Assembly (NCBI RefSeq): GCF_000426685.1
Contig: NZ_AUFV01000001.1
Coordinates: forward strand, 434,001 to 498,000
Direction: 5' to 3'
DNA: 64,000 nucleotides
Source: Solimonas flava DSM 18980
GTDB lineage: Bacteria > Pseudomonadota > Gammaproteobacteria > Nevskiales > Nevskiaceae
Below, piece by piece: positions 44,854 to 56,090 of the stretch. The translations under genes were made by a program, and so were the position numbers. Positions within the stretch are counted from its first letter, which is position 1; every line of letters begins with the position of its first letter. The notes under the pieces were generated by a model. It made no database searches. It was given only the letters and a program-made list of their open reading frames with translations, and was not told the DNA's origin.

Positions 44854-46161
<1,308 letters not shown>

Positions 46162-46274
46162 TTGCAACATTCCTCACGGGGTGAAAGAAACGGATTCCGT
46201 AAGCCCTGTACGGACTCCCGACGGAGGTTTCAGTCACGGCGTCGGTGAGCGCGGCGGACCTATTGGGGGCCGGG

Positions 46275-46722: not shown

Positions 46723-47511
46723 ATGCCGCCCGCCGCGCCGCCAGCGCCGCCGGCGGCCTGTCGCCCGGACCCCAGCGCCGAACCTTCGAACGTGATCCAC
46801 GCCCGTGGCCTGACCAAGCTGTACCGCGGCGCCGAACAGCCGGCGCTGGCCGGCATCGACTTCGACGTCGCCGCCGGCAGCGTATTCGGCCTGCTCGGCC
46901 CGAACGGCGCCGGCAAGACCACGCTGATGTCGCTGCTGACCGGCATCCAGCGCGCGGACGCCGGACGGCTGACGGTCGCCGGCGCCGAGCTGCCGGCGCA
47001 GATCGACGCGCTGCGCCCGCTGCTCGGCTTCGCGCCGCAGGAGCTGGCCTTCTATCCGGCGCTGAGCGTCGACGAGAACCTGCGGCTGTTCGCGAAGCTG
47101 ACACCCGGCGCCGATGCCGCCAGCCGCGCGGCGGCGATCGCCACCGCCGACCTCGGCGCACACCTGCGCAGGCGCGCCGAGACGCTGTCGGGCGGCCTGA
47201 AGCGGCGCCTGAACTTCGCGATCGCCCTGCTCGGCCGGCCGCGCCTGCTGCTGCTCGACGAGCCGACCGCCGGCGTCGACCCGCAGTCGCGCAACTTCCT
47301 GCTCGAGCGCATCGCCGCGCTGCGCGCCAGCGGCGTGACCGTCCTCTACAGCTCGCATTACCTGGAGGAGATCGAGCGCATCTGCGACGCCGCGCTGCTG
47401 CTCGACCGCGGCCGCGTCGTCATGCACGGCGACATCGCCACGCTGCGCGGCGCGCACGCGCGCATCGAGGACGCCTTCCTGCAGCTCACCGAACGGACGC
47501 TGCGCGACTGA
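46723..47511 (+). CDS. ABC transporter ATP-binding protein (ABC-2 exporter type)
   Basis: The product is about 262 aa with an Ala/Pro-rich N-terminal lead. Walker A (LLGPNGAGKTTLM), Q-loop (GFAPQELAFYP), signature (LSGGLKRRLNFAIALL), Walker B (LLLLDEPTAGVDPQ) and H-loop (SSHYLEEIE) are all intact. It pairs with the permease that starts two bases after its stop. As first gene of an operon with an ACP and ketosynthases it probably exports the product of that cluster. Confidence 0.92.
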   Translation: MPPAAPPAPPAACRPDPSAEPSNVIHARGLTKLYRGAEQPALAGIDFDVAAGSVFGLLGPNGAGKTTLMSLLTGIQRADAGRLTVAGAELPAQIDALRPLLGFAPQELAFYPALSVDENLRLFAKLTPGADAASRAAAIATADLGAHLRRRAETLSGGLKRRLNFAIALLGRPRLLLLDEPTAGVDPQSRNFLLERIAALRASGVTVLYSSHYLEEIERICDAALLLDRGRVVMHGDIATLRGAHARIEDAFLQLTERTLRD

Positions 47512-47513
47512 CG

Positions 47514-48713
47514 ATGAACGCCCTGCTCGCCCTGTCGCTGAAGGAACTGCGTCTGCTGGCGCGCGACTGGCACGGCCTCGCCGTGCTGTTCGCCGTGCCG
47601 GTGCTGTTCATCCTGCTGCTGTCGCTGGCACTGCGCGATGCCTTCGATCCGGCCGCCAGCGCGCGTCTGCGCCTGCAGCTCGTCGACCAGGATCGCGGCG
47701 CGCTGGCGCGCCAGTTCGCCGCCGAGCTGAAGGCACTGCCCGGCGTCGAGTTCGACGCGCAGGCGCCGGTGCGCGTCACCGTACTGCCCGGCTTCTCCGA
47801 ACTGCTGGCGACGCGCGCCGACCTCGCCGCCGAACTGATCGCCGGCCAGGCCGAACCGGCCCTGCTGCAGATCGACTACGCCGCCAGCACGCTGCCGCAG
47901 ACGCGCGGACTCGCCGCCCTGAACGTGCGCGGCGCGCTGCTGCAGGTGCAGAGCGATTACCTGTTCCGCGAGGTGCTCGGCTACCCCGAAGCGCGCCGCG
48001 CCGAGCTACGCTTCCTCGGCGATCCGCGGCGGCTGCCGATCACCGAGGCCTTCCGCGACGGCGCCGGCCGCACGGTGGCGGCGCCGACCGCCGTGCAGCA
48101 GAACGTGCCGGGCTGGCTGATCTTCGCGATGTTCTTCGCGGTGATTCCGCTGGCCACCAGCTTCGTCGTCGAGCGCAGCCAGGGCAGCCTGCTGCGCCTG
48201 CGCGTGCTCGGCGTTCCGGCCGGCACGCTGCTGCTGTCCAAGGCGCTGCCGTACTACTGCGTCAATCTGCTGCAAATGCTGGTAATGCTGGCCGTCGGCA
48301 TCTGGCTGGTGCCGGCGCTCGGCGGCGACCGTCTCGATCCCGGCCACAGCGCGCTCGGCCTGTGGCTGCTCGGCAGCGCGACCAGCCTCGCCGCGATCGG
48401 CCTGGCGCTGTGCGTCGCGGTCACCGTGCGCACGACTCTGCAGGCGACGATCGCCGGCGGCGCGATCAGCCTGCTGCTCGCCGCGCTCGGCGGCGTGATG
48501 GTGCCCAAGCTGGTGATGCCGCCGGCGATGCAGACCCTGACCCAGCTGTCGCCGATGGCCTGGAGCCTCGATGGCTTCTCGCGCCTGCTCGTCGCCGGCG
48601 GCGGCGTGCACGACATCCTGCCGGCCGGCGGCGCGCTGCTGGCCTTCGCCGCGGCGACGCTCGCGCTCGCCGCGCTGCTCTACCGCCACACCGTGCAATC
48701 CCACCCTGGTTGA
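47514..48713 (+). CDS. ABC-2 type permease
   Basis: The protein is 399 aa. One N-terminal membrane helix (WHGLAVLFAVPVLFILLLSL), a large extracytoplasmic domain (~residues 45-190) and five more helices in the C-terminal half form the ABC2_membrane_3 layout (VPGWLIFAMFFAVIPLATSF, LLRLRVLGVPAGTLLLSKAL). It starts two bases after its ATPase gene and ends four bases before the ACP gene. Confidence 0.9.
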   Translation: MNALLALSLKELRLLARDWHGLAVLFAVPVLFILLLSLALRDAFDPAASARLRLQLVDQDRGALARQFAAELKALPGVEFDAQAPVRVTVLPGFSELLATRADLAAELIAGQAEPALLQIDYAASTLPQTRGLAALNVRGALLQVQSDYLFREVLGYPEARRAELRFLGDPRRLPITEAFRDGAGRTVAAPTAVQQNVPGWLIFAMFFAVIPLATSFVVERSQGSLLRLRVLGVPAGTLLLSKALPYYCVNLLQMLVMLAVGIWLVPALGGDRLDPGHSALGLWLLGSATSLAAIGLALCVAVTVRTTLQATIAGGAISLLLAALGGVMVPKLVMPPAMQTLTQLSPMAWSLDGFSRLLVAGGGVHDILPAGGALLAFAAATLALAALLYRHTVQSHPG

Positions 48714-48717
48714 TCCC

Positions 48718-48984
48718 ATGAAAGGCTCGCAAGACGCGGCGCTGAAGCTGCGCCTCAAGCAACTGATCGTTCGCGAAACGGACAAGGCCGTCGATCCGGC
48801 GACGGTGCCCGACGACCAGCCGCTGTTCGGGCCGAAGTCGGCGCTGGAACTCGACTCGGTCGACGGCCTGCAGATCTCGATGGCGCTGCAAGTCGAGTTC
48901 GGCCTGCGCGTCGAGGACCCCAAGCAGATGCGTCGCCTGCTCGCCGACGTCAACACGCTCGCCGACCACCTGCAGCCGCAATGA
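48718..48984 (+). CDS. Acyl carrier protein
   Basis: The product is 88 aa. The phosphopantetheine attachment site is LELDSVDGLQ with Ser47. It is more basic at the N-terminus than housekeeping AcpP and ends in a VNTLADHL helix. It lies inside a biosynthetic operon, so it is a dedicated carrier. Its stop overlaps the ketosynthase start by four bases. Confidence 0.9.
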   Translation: MKGSQDAALKLRLKQLIVRETDKAVDPATVPDDQPLFGPKSALELDSVDGLQISMALQVEFGLRVEDPKQMRRLLADVNTLADHLQPQ

Positions 48985-50096
48985 CGCGCGCGGTCTATCT
49001 GCGCGGCGCGCAGGCGCATTGCGCCGCCGGCGATGACGCCGCCGCGATCGCCGCCGCCTGCCGCGCCGACGCGCCGACGCCGGCCGACGTGCGCTTCCGC
49101 AGCCTCGGCAGCGAAATCACGCTGCCGTACTTCCGCGCCGCCGGCGTCGAGGCTGCGACGCCCGCTCTCGCCGCGCGGGCGCTCGGTGACGCCGATCGCG
49201 GCACACCGCGCCTCGGTCTCTACTTCGGCAGTTCCTCGGCCGGCATCGCCGCGCACGAGCGCGCCTACGTCGAGGCGCGCGCCGCCGGCCGCGACGATTT
49301 TCCGATCCGCTCGCCCGACCAGAGCCGCAGCGCGCGCCGCCTGCATGGCGCGCTCGGCCTGCGCGGGCCGTACTACACCCTGAGCACGGCCTGCTCGAGC
49401 GCCGCCAACGCCCTGCTCTACGCCGGCTTTGCGCTGCGCGACGGGGCACTCGACGAGGCGCTCGCGGTCGGCGTCGAGGAGGAGAACCAGGTTTCACAGC
49501 AGGGCTTCTTCAGCATGATGCTGGCGACGCGCGCGCGCAGCCGGCCGTTCGACGCGCGCCGCGACGGCATCGTGCTCGGCGAATGCGCTGCGGCGCTGCG
49601 CCTGTCGGCGACGCGCGGCACGGCGCGCTGGCAGCTGCTCGGCGGCGCCAGCCTCTGCGACGTCTCGCACCCGACCAATCCGTCGCCGCAGCGCATCGCC
49701 GACACCATCGCCGCCGCCCTGACCGACGCCGGCGTCGCGTCGCGCGAGGTCGCCGCGGTCAAGGCGCACGGCACCGGCACGCGCGCCAACGACCTCGCCG
49801 AAGCGCTCGGCCTGCGCCAGGTGTTCGGCGACGCGGTGCCGCCCTTCACCTCGCTCAAGCCGGTGTTCGGACACACGCTCGGCGCCTGCGGCGCGCTCGA
49901 GACCGCCGCCTTCGTCGCCTGCCTCGAACGCGGCTTCGTGCCGGCCACGGCCGGCTTCGAGGAAGAGGACGACGAATTCGGCATCGCGCCGCTGCGCGCG
50001 CCGGCGCCCTGGCGCGGCGGCATCGTCCTGCTCAATTATTTCGGCTTCGGCGGCAACAACTGCTCGCTGCTGCTGCGCGAGCTGCCGCCATGCTGA
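48981..50096 (+). CDS. Beta-ketoacyl-ACP synthase (KAS I/II type)
   Basis: The protein is 371 aa, shorter than FabF. The catalytic triad is intact: C138 in TLSTACSSAANAL, His in VKAHGTGTRANDLAEA and His in KPVFGHTLGACGALE. It elongates an acyl chain on an ACP. It overlaps the ACP gene upstream and the Cys-less ketosynthase-like gene downstream, which suggests a KAS-alpha/KAS-beta pair. Confidence 0.92.
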   Translation: MTRAVYLRGAQAHCAAGDDAAAIAAACRADAPTPADVRFRSLGSEITLPYFRAAGVEAATPALAARALGDADRGTPRLGLYFGSSSAGIAAHERAYVEARAAGRDDFPIRSPDQSRSARRLHGALGLRGPYYTLSTACSSAANALLYAGFALRDGALDEALAVGVEEENQVSQQGFFSMMLATRARSRPFDARRDGIVLGECAAALRLSATRGTARWQLLGGASLCDVSHPTNPSPQRIADTIAAALTDAGVASREVAAVKAHGTGTRANDLAEALGLRQVFGDAVPPFTSLKPVFGHTLGACGALETAAFVACLERGFVPATAGFEEEDDEFGIAPLRAPAPWRGGIVLLNYFGFGGNNCSLLLRELPPC

Positions 50097-50938
50097 ACAT
50101 CGCCGGGTTCGGACGCCATGTCGGCACGCTCGGTACCGCGCCGGACGATTTGCGGGCGCAGCTGCAGGCGCTCGGCGTCAGCGTGCGCCGCGTCAACCGT
50201 TTCATCGAGCTGGCCCTGCTCGGCGCGCTGCGCTGCCGCGAGCGCAGCGGCGACATCGGCACCGACGCGGCGCTGTACGTGGCGGCCGAGACGCCGATGC
50301 TCAACGACTGCGTCAAGGCGCTGCGCTCGACGATCGCCGAGCAGCGGCCGCCGACGCCGTTCGAGTTCATGAACATCTCCGGCAACATGGCCGGCTTCTA
50401 CATTGCCCAGCAACTCGGCATCGGCGGTCCGCAGCTCGCCGTCGCGCGCCGCCACGGCGGCCTCGAAGCCGGCATCGAACTGCTCGGCATCGGCCATCGC
50501 AGCCACCGCCGCGCGCTGCTCGGCTGCGTCGACGAAGGCGTCTGGCCGCTCGACGAGCAGCGCGACCGCCTCGGCCTTGCGGCCGACACGCCGCTGCACG
50601 AAAGCAGCCACTGGTTCCACATCGACGCCGACTGCGCGGCGCCGCTCGCGCGTGTCGCGGCGCTGCTGCCGCAGGCCGATTACGGCGCGATCGAGACCTG
50701 CCTGCGCGCGCTGCCCGGCGGCACGCGCCTCGCCCTGCACCCGCGGCTGGAGCGCGACGCGCCGCCGCTGCCGGCGACGCTCGAACGATTGCCCGGCCAC
50801 GGCCTGCACGGCCAGGGCGCCTGCGCCGAGGCGCTGTACCGCTATCTGGACAGCGGCGCGCCGGCGCCGTGGTGCCATCTGAGCCGCGGCGAGGACGGCC
50901 TGTGGTATCTGCTGCACGTGCAGCCGGGCGCAGGCTGA
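50090..50938 (+). CDS. Ketosynthase-like protein lacking the active-site cysteine
   Basis: The protein is 282 aa. It shows the thiolase-fold pattern of a KAS N-terminal half (AALYVAAETPMLNDCVKALR, FEFMNISGNMAGFYIAQQLG), but the catalytic Cys is replaced (NISGNMAG where active enzymes have TACSSA) and the C-terminal His motifs are absent. This resembles chain length factors or inactive KAS partners. Its ATG overlaps the KAS stop. A heterodimer with the preceding KAS is inferred. Confidence 0.72.
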   Translation: MLNIAGFGRHVGTLGTAPDDLRAQLQALGVSVRRVNRFIELALLGALRCRERSGDIGTDAALYVAAETPMLNDCVKALRSTIAEQRPPTPFEFMNISGNMAGFYIAQQLGIGGPQLAVARRHGGLEAGIELLGIGHRSHRRALLGCVDEGVWPLDEQRDRLGLAADTPLHESSHWFHIDADCAAPLARVAALLPQADYGAIETCLRALPGGTRLALHPRLERDAPPLPATLERLPGHGLHGQGACAEALYRYLDSGAPAPWCHLSRGEDGLWYLLHVQPGAG

Positions 50939-50954
50939 AGCGCGGGGCCGGAAG

Positions 50955-51968
50955 CTACGCGGCGCGCGCCTTCGACCAGGCCTTGAGCGCCTCGTAGTTG
51001 GCGCGCTCCTGGGCGGCGCACTCGCGCAGCAGCGCGGCGAGTCGCGCCGGCGTCACGTCCGGCTTCTTGCGCGCGAAATGCGCGCCGGCCAGCGCGAAGC
51101 GGCGCCAGGCGTCGCCGCAGTCCGTCATGCGCTGTGCGGCAGCGCGCAGCGCCGGCTCGTCGAGCCGCTCACCGGCTTCCTGCAGGAAGGCCGCGTACAT
51201 GAAACGGAAGCCGCCGCCGCCGGTGCCGATCTCCTCCTGCATGCGGATCACGTTGCCGACGAACAGACGCTGCCAGCGCAGGTCCGGGTTCTTGCGCGCG
51301 AGCGTCTCGATGCGCCGCGCAAGGGCTTCGATCGCACGCACGCCGACGTACGGAACCGGCGTGTGCAGCATCATCTTCCAGGTCTTGCCGATCGCGCGCT
51401 GCGTCGCCGCGCGCAGATCGAACTGCGCCGGCAGCGCCTGCGGGAAGTACAGCAGCCCCTTCGGCGCGAAGGTGCCGCGCGCGTAGCGCGCCTTGCGCAG
51501 GTCGGCGGCGGCGCAGCGCTGCGGCTGGTCGAACACCGGATCGCTGATCAGGTAGTCGTCGCCGTCCTTGCCGTAGACGATCAGGTTGTGCGCGTTGAAG
51601 TGGAAGCGCATTTCCGGCGGGAAGTACGGCAGCCAGTAGACCGAGGCCTGCAGGCCGACCGGACGGCCGCCGGCGAGCTCGGCGTCGAGCGCCGCCATCG
51701 CCGCGTCGGGATCGCCGAAGCGCTGCTTGCGCATCGTCAGGCCGAGCGCCTTGCGCAGGCCGCCGTAGACGCTGCCCGGCGGCATCCGGTAGGCGGTGAT
51801 CGGAAAGCCGCCGACCTTGACGAACGGGAAGTGGAAGAAGGTCAGCGAGGCCGACAGGCCGAGCGCCATCGGCTCGCTGAGTTCGACGCCGTAGTGGCGC
51901 AGCAGGCTGCTGGTCACGCCGGTCTCGCAGTGACCGGCATGGCGATGCTCGAAGTTCTCGACTTTCAC
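50955..51968 (-). CDS. BtrH-like acyltransferase (BtrH_N plus DUF4872)
   Basis: The protein is about 337 aa from GTG 51968. The N-terminal papain-like domain has the Cys in HAGHCETGVTSSLLRHYG (C14) and the His/Asp pair in FNAHNLIVYGKDGDDYLISD; the C-terminal helical region matches DUF4872 (FVGNVIRMQEEIGTGGGGFR). BtrH moves an acyl group from an ACP to an amine in butirosin synthesis; here it could release the product from the cluster's ACP. It is the last gene of the leftward operon, 16 nt from the convergent one. Confidence 0.83.
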   Translation of the reverse strand: MKVENFEHRHAGHCETGVTSSLLRHYGVELSEPMALGLSASLTFFHFPFVKVGGFPITAYRMPPGSVYGGLRKALGLTMRKQRFGDPDAAMAALDAELAGGRPVGLQASVYWLPYFPPEMRFHFNAHNLIVYGKDGDDYLISDPVFDQPQRCAAADLRKARYARGTFAPKGLLYFPQALPAQFDLRAATQRAIGKTWKMMLHTPVPYVGVRAIEALARRIETLARKNPDLRWQRLFVGNVIRMQEEIGTGGGGFRFMYAAFLQEAGERLDEPALRAAAQRMTDCGDAWRRFALAGAHFARKKPDVTPARLAALLRECAAQERANYEALKAWSKARAA

Positions 51969-52360
51969 GGCAGTTTCTTGAGTTCGTCGACGCCCAGGCC
52001 GAGCGCGTCGGCGTAGGCCTGCAGGCGGCGCGCGCGCAGGCGCGCGAAGACCTGCGGCTGCAGCGCGCGGCGCACGCCGCAGCGCCAGAAGCCGGTGCTC
52101 TGCGCCAGCGTCGGCAGATCCATGCGGCGGGCGTACATGTGGTATTCGAGCGGCGAGCACTCGCCGCGCCGCGCGCGTTGCAGCGCTGCCTGCGCGAGCC
52201 GCTCGAACTCGGCGATCGCATCGCCGGTGACGGTCGCCTCGACCTGCCAGCCGCTCGAGGCCACGGCCTCGTAGTGACCGTTGCGGTCCAGCGCATAGAC
52301 CGCCTTGCGCTGCTCACCGTAGTACGGCAGACCGTCCTGCGGTACCTCGTCGCGCTTCAC
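51965..52360 (-). CDS. Unknown 131-aa protein in the biosynthetic operon
   Basis: The product is 131 aa from GTG 52360. The N-terminal part has several aromatic residues (DGLPYYGEQRKAVYALDRNG, SSGWQVEATVTGDAIAEFER); the C-terminal part looks helical (LPTLAQSTGFWRCGVRRALQ, LQAYADALGLGVDELKKLP). I recognise no named family. GTGA overlaps join it to the KAS III gene upstream and the BtrH-like gene downstream, so it is very likely translated and part of the pathway. Confidence 0.72.
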   Translation of the reverse strand: MKRDEVPQDGLPYYGEQRKAVYALDRNGHYEAVASSGWQVEATVTGDAIAEFERLAQAALQRARRGECSPLEYHMYARRMDLPTLAQSTGFWRCGVRRALQPQVFARLRARRLQAYADALGLGVDELKKLP

Positions 52361-53535
52361 GGACCGACCACCGTCAAGGCGACGAAGGCGATCGAGAAGC
52401 GACCGCTCTCCGGCACGTAGCAGAGAATGCGCTGGCCGGGCTGCAGGGTCTGCGAGCGCATCAGGTCGTCCAGCAGCAGGTACATCGACGCCGAGCCGAC
52501 GTTGCCGCGATAGCGCAGGTTGGTAAACCAGCGCGAGCGCGGAATCTTCCAGTCGTCCGGCATCACTTCCCACATCACGTCGGCGAAGTGCGCCGACGAA
52601 TAATGCGGCACGTACCAGTCGACCTCGTCGGCGCGCAGGCCACGGCGCTCGATCATCGCCTCGAAAGCGCGCCGCGAGCTGATGCGGATGCCGTCCTCGA
52701 GCAGGCGCACATCCTGCTTCAGCGACAGCAGCGAACGGTCGGCGACGGCCTGCATCGAGCCGAGCTCGCGCCAGCCCATCAGGCGGCCCTCGGCCGTCTT
52801 CTCGGCACCGGCGTACATGCAGGTCGGCAGTTCGTGCGCGTATGACCACTGGTCGATCCAGTCGATGCGCAGCGACAGTCCGTCGGTGCGCGCGCGGTCT
52901 TCCAGCAGCATCGCGCCGGCGCCGTCCGACAGCATCCAGCGCAGGAAGTCCTTCTCGAAGGCGATGACCGGCTTCTTCTCGAGCGCGGCGACGCGCGCCT
53001 CGTTCTCCGCCTCGAAGTTCCAGGCGCGCATGAAGGTTGAAGCCGTCTCCGAGCCGGTGGCGACGGCATTGCTCGTCAGTCCGGCCAGCACCGACATGTA
53101 GGCGTACTTCAGCGACATCACGCCGGAGACGCAGATGCCGGCGGTCGCAACGACCTCGCAGGGATGGCTGCCGAGTTCGCCATGCACCATCACGCCATGA
53201 TTCGGCGCGATCTGATCGGGCGTGCTCGTGCCGCAGGCCAGCAGCTCGATGTCGTCGATCTCGAAGCCGTCGCCGGCCAGATCGCGGACCGCCTCGGCGG
53301 TCAGCTGCGCGTTGCTGTGCGTCTGGCATCCGGATTCCGGATCGAACACGTAATGCCGCGTCTGAATGCCGTTGCTGCGCAGCACCAGCGCGCGGGCTCG
53401 CGACGGCCTGCCGCCAACCTGACCGAGCACCGCCTCCATGCGGTCGTTGTCGACCGGGGCGTTTGGCAGGGCGGTGCCGATGCGCGTGATGAAGACTCCG
53501 GCCGGGCCGGACTTTTCCGAAGAACGAGCGGTCAT
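52357..53535 (-). CDS. KAS III-type ketosynthase, DarB-like
   Basis: The protein is 392 aa. The triad is complete: C135 in VATAGICVSGVMSLKYA, His in VDWYVPHYSSAHF and Asn in RYRGNVGSASMYLLLDD. The N-terminal stretch PVDNDRMEAVLGQVGGRPSR and NGIQTRHYVFD matches DarB/StlD-like enzymes that form dialkylresorcinols and cyclohexanediones (recalled similarity). It probably joins two acyl chains rather than priming fatty acid synthesis. It follows the DarA-like gene by 5 nt. Confidence 0.86.
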   Translation of the reverse strand: MTARSSEKSGPAGVFITRIGTALPNAPVDNDRMEAVLGQVGGRPSRARALVLRSNGIQTRHYVFDPESGCQTHSNAQLTAEAVRDLAGDGFEIDDIELLACGTSTPDQIAPNHGVMVHGELGSHPCEVVATAGICVSGVMSLKYAYMSVLAGLTSNAVATGSETASTFMRAWNFEAENEARVAALEKKPVIAFEKDFLRWMLSDGAGAMLLEDRARTDGLSLRIDWIDQWSYAHELPTCMYAGAEKTAEGRLMGWRELGSMQAVADRSLLSLKQDVRLLEDGIRISSRRAFEAMIERRGLRADEVDWYVPHYSSAHFADVMWEVMPDDWKIPRSRWFTNLRYRGNVGSASMYLLLDDLMRSQTLQPGQRILCYVPESGRFSIAFVALTVVGP

Positions 53536-53540
53536 TAACC

Positions 53541-54476
53541 TCAACACCCCAGCGATTCCGTCCCCGACCCCGACGGTTGTTCGAAATAGGCTTTCTGCGC
53601 GCGCAGGCGCCGCGCCGTCAGCGGCCGCAGCGCGGCACGCAGCAGCATCGTGACCGGCACGACGGTGACGATCATCGTGATCAGGAAAGCGGCGTACACG
53701 AGCAGCACCGGGCGCCGTCGCCAGGAGCCTTGCGGGCCGATCGCGCGAATCAGGCGCCCCCAGATCTGGAAGCTGCGCCGGCCGATGCGTTCGCTCGGCA
53801 GCAGGCGCACATCGGCATTGACGGCGCCGAGCCCGCGCAGCACCGGCGCGCGGCCGTCGAGGCGGCCGTCGCGCAGCGCGGCGGCGAGCGCGACGCCGAA
53901 GCGTGCGGCGCCGGCGATCTGCGCGTCGCCGAGGCCCGCCGCCGGCAGCCCCCAGAACGCGTCGCGACGGCCACTGAGCATCCAGCGCGGCGTGGTGATG
54001 AAGGTCGCGAAGCTGGGACCGGCGTCGGTCAGCACGATGTTGTCGGACAGCCGCGCGCCGGCGGCGGCGAGCATGTCCTTGACGCACTCCTGCGCGAGCA
54101 GCCACATGTTGCGGCAGCCGATCAGCGTCACCACCGGCGTATCGCGCAGCAGGCGCCGCCCCTGCTCGGAGCGCAGGAACGCGGTCACCGGCGGCGCCGG
54201 CGACAGGAACCAGACGGTGTACGCCAGGATCACGAGGTCGTAGCGCGCGTCGGCGGCGATCGGCAGCGGCTGCAGCTCCGGCGGATCCAGATGGACCGCC
54301 TCCGGAAACTGATCGAAGAAGCGGAAGAACGGCCACGGAAACGGATACGGCTCGCGCGGCTGCAGCGCGCAGCGGTCGACGGCGATGCCGGCCGCGCTCA
54401 GCGGCGCGCACACCGATTCGGCCAGCCGGCGCAATTGGCCGGTCTGCGAGTAGTAGACCAACAGAACGCGTTTCAT
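53541..54476 (-). CDS. Flavodoxin-fold protein, DarA-like (dialkylresorcinol family)
   Basis: The protein is about 311 aa. The N-terminal flavodoxin loop is MKRVLLVYYSQTGQLRRLAE, with VILAYTVWFLSPAPPV and LIGCRNMWLLAQECVKDML later; a membrane helix lies near the end (VLLVYAAFLITMIVTVVPVT). The family is usually annotated as dialkylresorcinol condensing enzyme and partners with DarB-like KAS III, which is the next gene. It may perform the aromatisation or reduction step. GGAAGGGGA precedes the ATG at 54476. Confidence 0.75.
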   Translation of the reverse strand: MKRVLLVYYSQTGQLRRLAESVCAPLSAAGIAVDRCALQPREPYPFPWPFFRFFDQFPEAVHLDPPELQPLPIAADARYDLVILAYTVWFLSPAPPVTAFLRSEQGRRLLRDTPVVTLIGCRNMWLLAQECVKDMLAAAGARLSDNIVLTDAGPSFATFITTPRWMLSGRRDAFWGLPAAGLGDAQIAGAARFGVALAAALRDGRLDGRAPVLRGLGAVNADVRLLPSERIGRRSFQIWGRLIRAIGPQGSWRRRPVLLVYAAFLITMIVTVVPVTMLLRAALRPLTARRLRAQKAYFEQPSGSGTESLGC

Positions 54477-54725: not shown

Positions 54726-56090
54726 TCAGGCCAGCGAGGTCCGCTCCAGCGGCGCCAGCTGGCGGTGCAGCTGGCCGCGCAGCAGCAACAGATTGAGCCC
54801 GAGCTGCAGCAGCGCCCCGGCGATCGACAGTGCCCACAGCCAGACCGGCGCGAAGTCGGCGCGCGACGACAGCAGCAGGCCGGCCGCGACGATGAAGCCG
54901 AAGCGCAGGACCGTGCCGAACAGCGAGGGCAGCGTGTTGCCGAAGCCCGCAAACACGCCGCCGCAGGCCATCACCACGCCCATCGCCAGCAGGTTCCACG
55001 AAATCCAGCGCAGGAACTCGGCACCGTAGCGAATCACCTCGGGATCGGGGGAGAACGGCCGGATCAGCGCATCCGGCGCCAGATGGAAGGCCACGCAGAA
55101 CAGGCCGACGGCGGTCAGATTCAGCTTGAGCGCGTCGACGAAGACCTGCCGCACGCGGCCCGGGCGGCCGGCGCCGAAATTCTGGCCGACGATCGCCGCG
55201 GTCGCGAAGCTGATCGCCATCGCCGGCATCATGCCGAACTGCAGCACGCGCATGCCGATGCCGAACGCTGCCTGCGGCGCGGCGCCGAAGCGCTGCAGCA
55301 TGGCCATGATGAAGCCGAAGTAGAACGCCAGCAGCGCGAGCTCGAGTCCGGACGGCAGCCCGATGCGGACGATGCGCCGCCAGAGCGTCGGATGCGGCCG
55401 CCAGGCCGTTGCGCGGCGATCGAGGAAGCGGTTCTGGCGCAGGACGTGAATCAGCAGGCCGCTCAGACCGGCCAGCACCGAAAGCAGGGTCGCGAGCGCC
55501 GCCCCGGCGACACCGAGCGGCCGGCCGGTGCCCCAGCCGAAGATCAGCACCGGCGCCAGCACGATATTGAGCAGCACCGTGCCGAGCTGGGCGAGCGAAG
55601 CCGTGCGCACGTCGCCGACGCCGCGCAATGCGGCCGACAGCACGAACATCGGAATCTGCAGCGCCATCGCCGGAATGAACGGCACGAGGAACTCGCGCGT
55701 CAGGCGTGCCGCCTCGGCGCTGCCGGCGAGTCGGTCGCTGTACGGGCCGTACAGGGCCAGCGCGACGGCGAGAAAGACCAGCGCCAGCAGCGCCGACAGC
55801 AGCTGCGACTGCGTGAACAGACGCCGCGCCTCGTCGAAATCCTTGCGGCCCGCGGCCTGCGCGACCAGCGCCGTGGCACCGACCGACAGCGTCTGCGCCA
55901 CGGCCATCAGCGCCATCATCAGATTGCTGCCGAGCGCGACCGCAGCGACCGCGTCACGGCCGAGGCGGCCGACCCAGAAGATGTCGATCAGGCCGTACGC
56001 CGTCTGCACCAGCATCGTCAGCAGCATGAAGCCGCTCATCCGCAGCAGGTGGCCGCGGACGGAGCCGCCGGTCAGATCGCGCGCCGCCAT
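54726..56090 (-). CDS. MATE-family multidrug efflux transporter
   Basis: The protein is 454 aa with twelve membrane segments in two related halves. Family patterns include MLVQTAYGLIDIFWVGRLGR near the N-terminus and ATAAIVGQNFGAGRPGRVRQ in the second half. It exports organic cations or drugs using Na+ or H+. It lies upstream of the biosynthetic operon on the same strand, 249 nt away, and could help export, but a direct link is not shown. Confidence 0.92.
   Translation of the reverse strand: MAARDLTGGSVRGHLLRMSGFMLLTMLVQTAYGLIDIFWVGRLGRDAVAAVALGSNLMMALMAVAQTLSVGATALVAQAAGRKDFDEARRLFTQSQLLSALLALVFLAVALALYGPYSDRLAGSAEAARLTREFLVPFIPAMALQIPMFVLSAALRGVGDVRTASLAQLGTVLLNIVLAPVLIFGWGTGRPLGVAGAALATLLSVLAGLSGLLIHVLRQNRFLDRRATAWRPHPTLWRRIVRIGLPSGLELALLAFYFGFIMAMLQRFGAAPQAAFGIGMRVLQFGMMPAMAISFATAAIVGQNFGAGRPGRVRQVFVDALKLNLTAVGLFCVAFHLAPDALIRPFSPDPEVIRYGAEFLRWISWNLLAMGVVMACGGVFAGFGNTLPSLFGTVLRFGFIVAAGLLLSSRADFAPVWLWALSIAGALLQLGLNLLLLRGQLHRQLAPLERTSLA

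Follow-up and report, generated by a model that had tools for sequence, protein, structure and literature searches.

A compact group of nine genes arranged around a DarA/DarB-like enzyme pair raises the question of whether it forms a possible new small biosynthetic cluster, as the first-pass annotation of this DNA had proposed, or belongs to a type of locus that has already been described. The window (the whole stretch of Solimonas flava DSM 18980 DNA that was analysed, 64,000 nucleotides long) carries these genes at 46723-54476. Judging from the sequence comparisons presented here, they very probably constitute a dar (dialkylresorcinol, DAR) gene set of the arcuflavin type.

A nine-gene locus with two convergent operons

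All nine open reading frames predicted earlier were confirmed, and they form two convergent operons separated by a gap of 16 nt (50939-50954). The forward operon, darF-darI-darC-darJ-darK, spans 46723-50938, the reverse one, darA-darB-darD-darE, runs from 54476 to 50955, and in four cases adjacent genes share 4 to 7 nt. Gene names follow the Azoarcus table (PMC3949708, Table 1); in the NCBIfam nomenclature DarD is called ‘DarG’ and DarE is called ‘DarH’.

On the forward strand, darF (46723..47511) encodes an ABC exporter ATPase (Pfam ABC_tran, E 9.6e-29), and a motif check found Walker A, LSGG and Walker B all present in its product. This gene may start further downstream, at a GTG at 46792; the ortholog alignment begins at residue 1 in one relative (G007) and at residue 24 in another (G004). 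It is followed by darI (47514..48713), encoding an ABC-2 permease (Pfam ABC2_membrane_3, E 4e-27), and by darC (48718..48984), whose product is an acyl carrier protein with a D-S-V-D motif starting at residue 46; its matches to Pfam PP-binding (E 0.0065, 17.1 vs 20.8 bits) and to NCBIfam PRK09184 (E 1e-7) both fall below the cut-off. The darJ gene (48981..50096) encodes a beta-ketoacyl-ACP synthase (Pfam Ketoacyl-synt_C, E 8.5e-23) with Cys138 placed within a TACSS motif.

The last gene of this operon, darK (50090..50938, forward strand), encodes a protein that gave no match in Pfam or NCBIfam. A profile built from 20 DarK rows matched a FabF-type ketosynthase (KS; E 7.9e-6), leaving the catalytic TAC motif unmatched, as well as 6kxd_B (E 4.2e-4). 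The best PDB match of the DarK structure model (pLDDT 90.9) was chain B of the ishigamide KS/CLF complex (E 9.7e-12, TM-score 0.74 on DarK), a chain which we take to be the chain-length factor. The earlier description of DarK as ‘Cys-less KAS-like’ was thus borne out, and the profile and model matches together sharpen it: according to its modelled structure, DarK is a chain-length-factor-like protein with a ketosynthase fold and without the catalytic Cys.

On the reverse strand, darA (53541..54476) encodes a putative flavodoxin-like partner of DarB. Its match to Pfam Flavodoxin_1 is weak (E 0.033, below cut-off) and no NCBIfam match was found, so that its assignment leans also on its position beside darB and on conservation, a DarA homologue being present in 72 of the 80 DarE loci that are the best of 569 relatives. 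The product of darB (52357..53535) is a KAS III of the StlD/DarB family (552 bits vs a cut-off of 450) which aligns over residues 13-390 with the solved ketosynthase StlD (PDB 5gk0, E 1.1e-134); the narrower NCBIfam model NF053539 resorcinol_DarB was not passed (479 vs 550). DarB carries Cys135, His311 and Asn345, to which we presumptively ascribe catalytic roles, as we do to DarJ Cys138 and to the D-S-V-D motif of DarC. Next, darD (51965..52360) encodes a small protein with a helical C-terminal part (DarG_fam, 158 bits vs 70), and darE (50955..51968) a BtrH-type acyltransferase (DarH_acyl, 462 bits vs 300). Curated NCBIfam cut-offs were passed by three proteins of the locus, those of the DarB, DarG and DarH families (NF005293, NF053536 and NF053550). 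Family scans also agree with the gene roles that had been read from the sequence for the ATPase, the permease, the KAS, the BtrH-type protein and the KAS III, and the DarA/DarB assignment fits as well.

A fold search with DarD returned helix-turn-helix-like matches that were all weak, no E-value being as low as 0.001. Its predicted C-terminal helices weakly match Cro/XRE-type proteins, with 3kxa (E 5.7e-3) at the top of the list, which could be chance; most of the first 38 residues of the model have pLDDT below 50. As to the flanks, a gene identified by eye as isocitrate lyase (44854-46170) flanks darF and also adjoins the locus in three genomes of the same genus, and darA is preceded upstream by a MATE-family efflux gene (54726-56090) of the same orientation. 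A MATE homologue stands beside the dar genes in two relatives (G007 and G003) and is absent from the other four regions compared.

A counterpart in Azoarcus and conservation of the nine genes

By the descriptions in Table 1 of PMC3949708, Azoarcus sp. BH72 has a dar locus that contains these nine gene types too (A, B, D, E, F, I, C, J and K); in it, darK, J, C, I, H, G, F, E, D, B and A correspond to azo0283-azo0293 and darE is annotated as a BtrH-like peptidase. Two genes of that locus, darG of the prevent-host-death type and darH with a PilT domain, are extra in comparison to the window’s set, and its locus-tag order, taken from a table that gives no strands, is A B D E F (G H) I C J K; the window has two convergent operons. 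In PMC3949708 the Azoarcus dar locus and physically separate polyene genes are assigned together to arcuflavin, a yellow pigment which, as inferred there from MS, consists of a xanthomonadin-like polyene with an ester-linked DAR, and the Azoarcus DAR proteins are reported to form DAR in E. coli (Fuchs et al. 2013, per PMC3949708). The dar genes thus lie apart from the polyene genes in Azoarcus, as they do in the window’s genome; there are two physically unlinked polyene loci in the former and one was found in the latter. Because of this Azoarcus locus (PMC3949708), the reading of the nine genes as a possible new cluster is rejected: a characterised cluster with essentially the same nine genes exists, in which the insertion mutants described hit the polyene genes arcK and arcT and not the dar genes. 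The locus type has already been described, and the window’s set very probably belongs to it.

A further likeness is to the flexirubin clusters of Chitinophaga pinensis and Flavobacterium johnsoniae, in which darA/darB stand with an aryl-polyene set and the product, according to the part of PMC3992019 available, is a DAR-polyene ester. The flexirubin polyene starts from tyrosine, whereas the polyene cluster of the window’s genome has an FkbO/Hyg5-type chorismatase, like ArcB of Azoarcus. Of 22 proteins picked at C3:407274-425474, 20 were scanned with Pfam, and no tyrosine ammonia-lyase was found among these. The flexirubin-specific DarG model of NCBIfam was not passed by DarD (117 vs a cut-off of 170). 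Convergent dar loci with the same genes and layout as in the window occur in other Gammaproteobacteria, e.g. Solimonas variicoloris, Marinobacter, Rheinheimera and Pseudomonas; some of them have polyene genes in the dar flank, whereas in the window’s genome these are on another contig.

When 40 relatives were searched with DarE, a match was found in six. Five of these six regions (G007, G003, G004, G033 and G026) carry the full set of nine in an unchanged order, and the sixth (G036) holds a distant BtrH-type protein alone (24% identity). The recurrence of the nine-gene order in five of six other genomes argues that the layout is not due to chance. A DarE match at 96% is present in Solimonas variicoloris DSM 15731 (NZ_KB907927.1) and likewise in G007. 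Among plasmids, DarE had matches in 57 records, every one below 60% identity, and DarA in three, all from Streptomyces.

A wider sample, the best 80 loci of 569 relatives, which leans to close relatives, contained homologues of DarD in 79 loci, DarB in 76, DarF in 72, DarI in 70, DarC in 69, DarJ in 65 and DarK in 38, the last being a lower bound since a single query was used and DarK diverges fast. As 28 of these loci are shorter than 18.9 kb, the other 52 were treated as the full-length set. Genes A, B, D, E, F, I, C and J are all present in 47 of the 52, and all nine genes in 29. As regards layout, 23 are convergent as in the window, 20 are collinear and 9 are arranged otherwise (two of them divergent), and at least two polyene homologues lie in the flank of 15 of the 52, whatever the layout. 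The two dar operons travel as one unit; the separate inheritance that the first-pass annotation had named as evidence against its reading is not observed.

Polyene genes elsewhere in the genome and their co-occurrence with DarH

The first-pass annotation had remarked on the absence of ketoreductase, dehydratase and AMP ligase. This holds for the locus; it does not hold for the genome, as a polyene gene set is present at G000:C3:407849-425474, while the window is on contig C1. Genes on C3 were chosen by a codon-usage picker. The set encodes two KS, a KS-like protein, a ketoreductase, ApeP-like, ApeI-like and FabA/FabZ-like dehydratases, two acyl carrier proteins, two acyltransferases, an AMP ligase, an FkbO/Hyg5-type chorismatase, a thioesterase, a GT2 glycosyltransferase, a DUF3261 protein, an FAD/halogenase-like protein, an MMPL exporter and LolA. 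Matches over the cut-off include a KS (NF006618, G000:C3:423027-424226), ApeP (C3:410009-410419), the chorismatase (PF21168, E 4.4e-36) and the AMP-binding domain (E 4.2e-21); the chorismatase is below the NCBIfam FkbO/Hyg5 cut-off (192 vs 325 bits). Most genes of this cluster have a counterpart in the Azoarcus arc lists (PMC3949708, Table 1). No methyltransferase was found among the C3 proteins scanned, and since the methyl group of arcuflavin is described as methionine-derived, the product may differ. A literature search for Solimonas with aryl polyene found no report.

Other KS domains of the same genome (G000), outside the window, lie in very long open frames, namely at C1:416574-417398, C4:343694-344512 and C4:351138-351962 in frames of 2678, 1644 and 3141 aa, respectively. 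These are probably type I PKS.

We then compared the occurrence of DarH (NCBIfam name for the DarE family) with that of the polyene marker ApeP, in counts and tests that ignore shared ancestry. Within the genus, both were found in the same 4 of 11 genomes. Among 85 genomes of the order, DarH was over the cut-off in 6 and ApeP in 13, the latter in 6/6 DarH-positive vs 7/79 other genomes. A class sample of 281 genomes had DarH in 15 and ApeP in 28, with ApeP in 10/15 DarH-positive genomes vs 18/266 others (Fisher one-sided p 4e-8, kinship ignored; p 2.7e-7 without the window’s genome). The five DarH-positive genomes without ApeP (G137, G138, G184, G273 and G359) each gave several polyene homologues by tblastn, on the dar contig stretch in G137, G138 and G359 and on another contig in the other two. 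Polyene genes were thus found in 15/15 DarH-positive genomes of the class, ten by one Pfam marker and five by targeted tblastn, and 18/266 is a lower bound, since tblastn covered those five genomes and not the DarH-negative ones. The second marker, DUF3261, was weaker (7/15 vs 13/266). At E 0.001 without cut-offs, DarH was found in 7/85 and 18/281 genomes and ApeP in 15/85 and 33/281.

Free dialkylresorcinols are known as antibiotics or signals in Pseudomonas chlororaphis and Photorhabdus, and the window’s locus might accordingly make such a compound, the polyene being a separate pigment. The order does contain six genomes with DarB and without DarH over the cut-off, four of which lack the ApeP marker, and heterologous expression of darA and darB from C. 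pinensis yielded DAR (PMC3992019). We nevertheless regard a free product as improbable here: DarH, DarG and the exporter are all present in the window’s locus, free DAR was not detected in Azoarcus extracts in the part of PMC3949708 available, and DarH occurs together with polyene genes. Within the order, ApeP is found in 2/6 of the DarB-only genomes vs 6/6 of those with DarH (one-sided p 0.03), which suggests that it is DarH, rather than DarB, that tracks the polyene. Still less probable, and indeed very unlikely, is a new small cluster whose product would be a resorcinol with an amide or ester link, made independently of any polyene, as the lack of ketoreductase, dehydratase and AMP ligase at the locus itself would allow, given that the gene types match the published dar locus (PMC3949708), that a polyene set is present in the same genome and that polyene genes accompany DarH throughout the class sample.

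Six short loci of the order with a DarB-type KAS III over the cut-off and DarH not over it (L115-L120, in G036, G044, G043, G018, G041 and G014) form an observation of their own. A KAS homologue adjoins the DarB-type gene in all six and a DarA homologue is present in three; these loci may represent another kind of DAR-type cluster within the order.

A predicted route to a DAR-polyene ester

For the arcuflavin-type locus that we favor, a plausible sequence of events can be proposed. By analogy with activities known from other organisms, DarB would condense two fatty-acid-derived acyl chains and DarA would aromatise the ring to a 2,5-dialkylresorcinol, while DarC and the KS/chain-length-factor-like pair DarJ-DarK may supply or carry the acyl substrate. 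The genes of the C3 cluster point to a chorismate-derived hydroxybenzoate being extended to an aryl polyene. DarE, as a BtrH-type cysteine acyltransferase, might then esterify the resorcinol with the ACP-bound polyene, and DarF-DarI might transport either the DAR or the completed pigment in the direction of the outer membrane, with DarD as a putative small accessory protein. The earlier guess of an ester-linked resorcinol fits this predicted product. An amide was also considered and set aside, as no amine-bearing partner gene was seen in the locus.

In DarE, Cys14, His127 and Asp143 are invariant in all six aligned sequences, from which we infer a catalytic triad; a comparison with solved structures by sequence gave nothing meaningful (best E 0.51). 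Because this BtrH-type protein tracks polyene genes, it is a candidate DAR-polyene ester synthase. A ligase-like protein, FlxW, has been proposed for the joining step in flexirubin (PMC3992019), and the available parts of PMC3949708 and PMC3992019 do not assign a BtrH-like gene to the ester-forming step; NCBIfam already names the DarH family an acyltransferase. More tentatively, and a little short of probable in our opinion, DarE would join the polyene to the dialkylresorcinol through an acyl group bound to Cys14, passed from the ACP to the phenol, while DarJ-DarK, as a dedicated KS/chain-length-factor pair, would set the alkyl chain of the resorcinol.

What looked like a novel gene set is thereby recognised as a pigment locus of a kind already known, with its partner locus elsewhere in the genome. 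To what has been described, modest additions are made, namely the chain-length-factor-like fold predicted for DarK and a BtrH-type enzyme that tracks polyene genes. Through the co-occurrence data, the latter becomes a concrete candidate, open to testing, for the step that forms the ester in DAR-polyene pigments.
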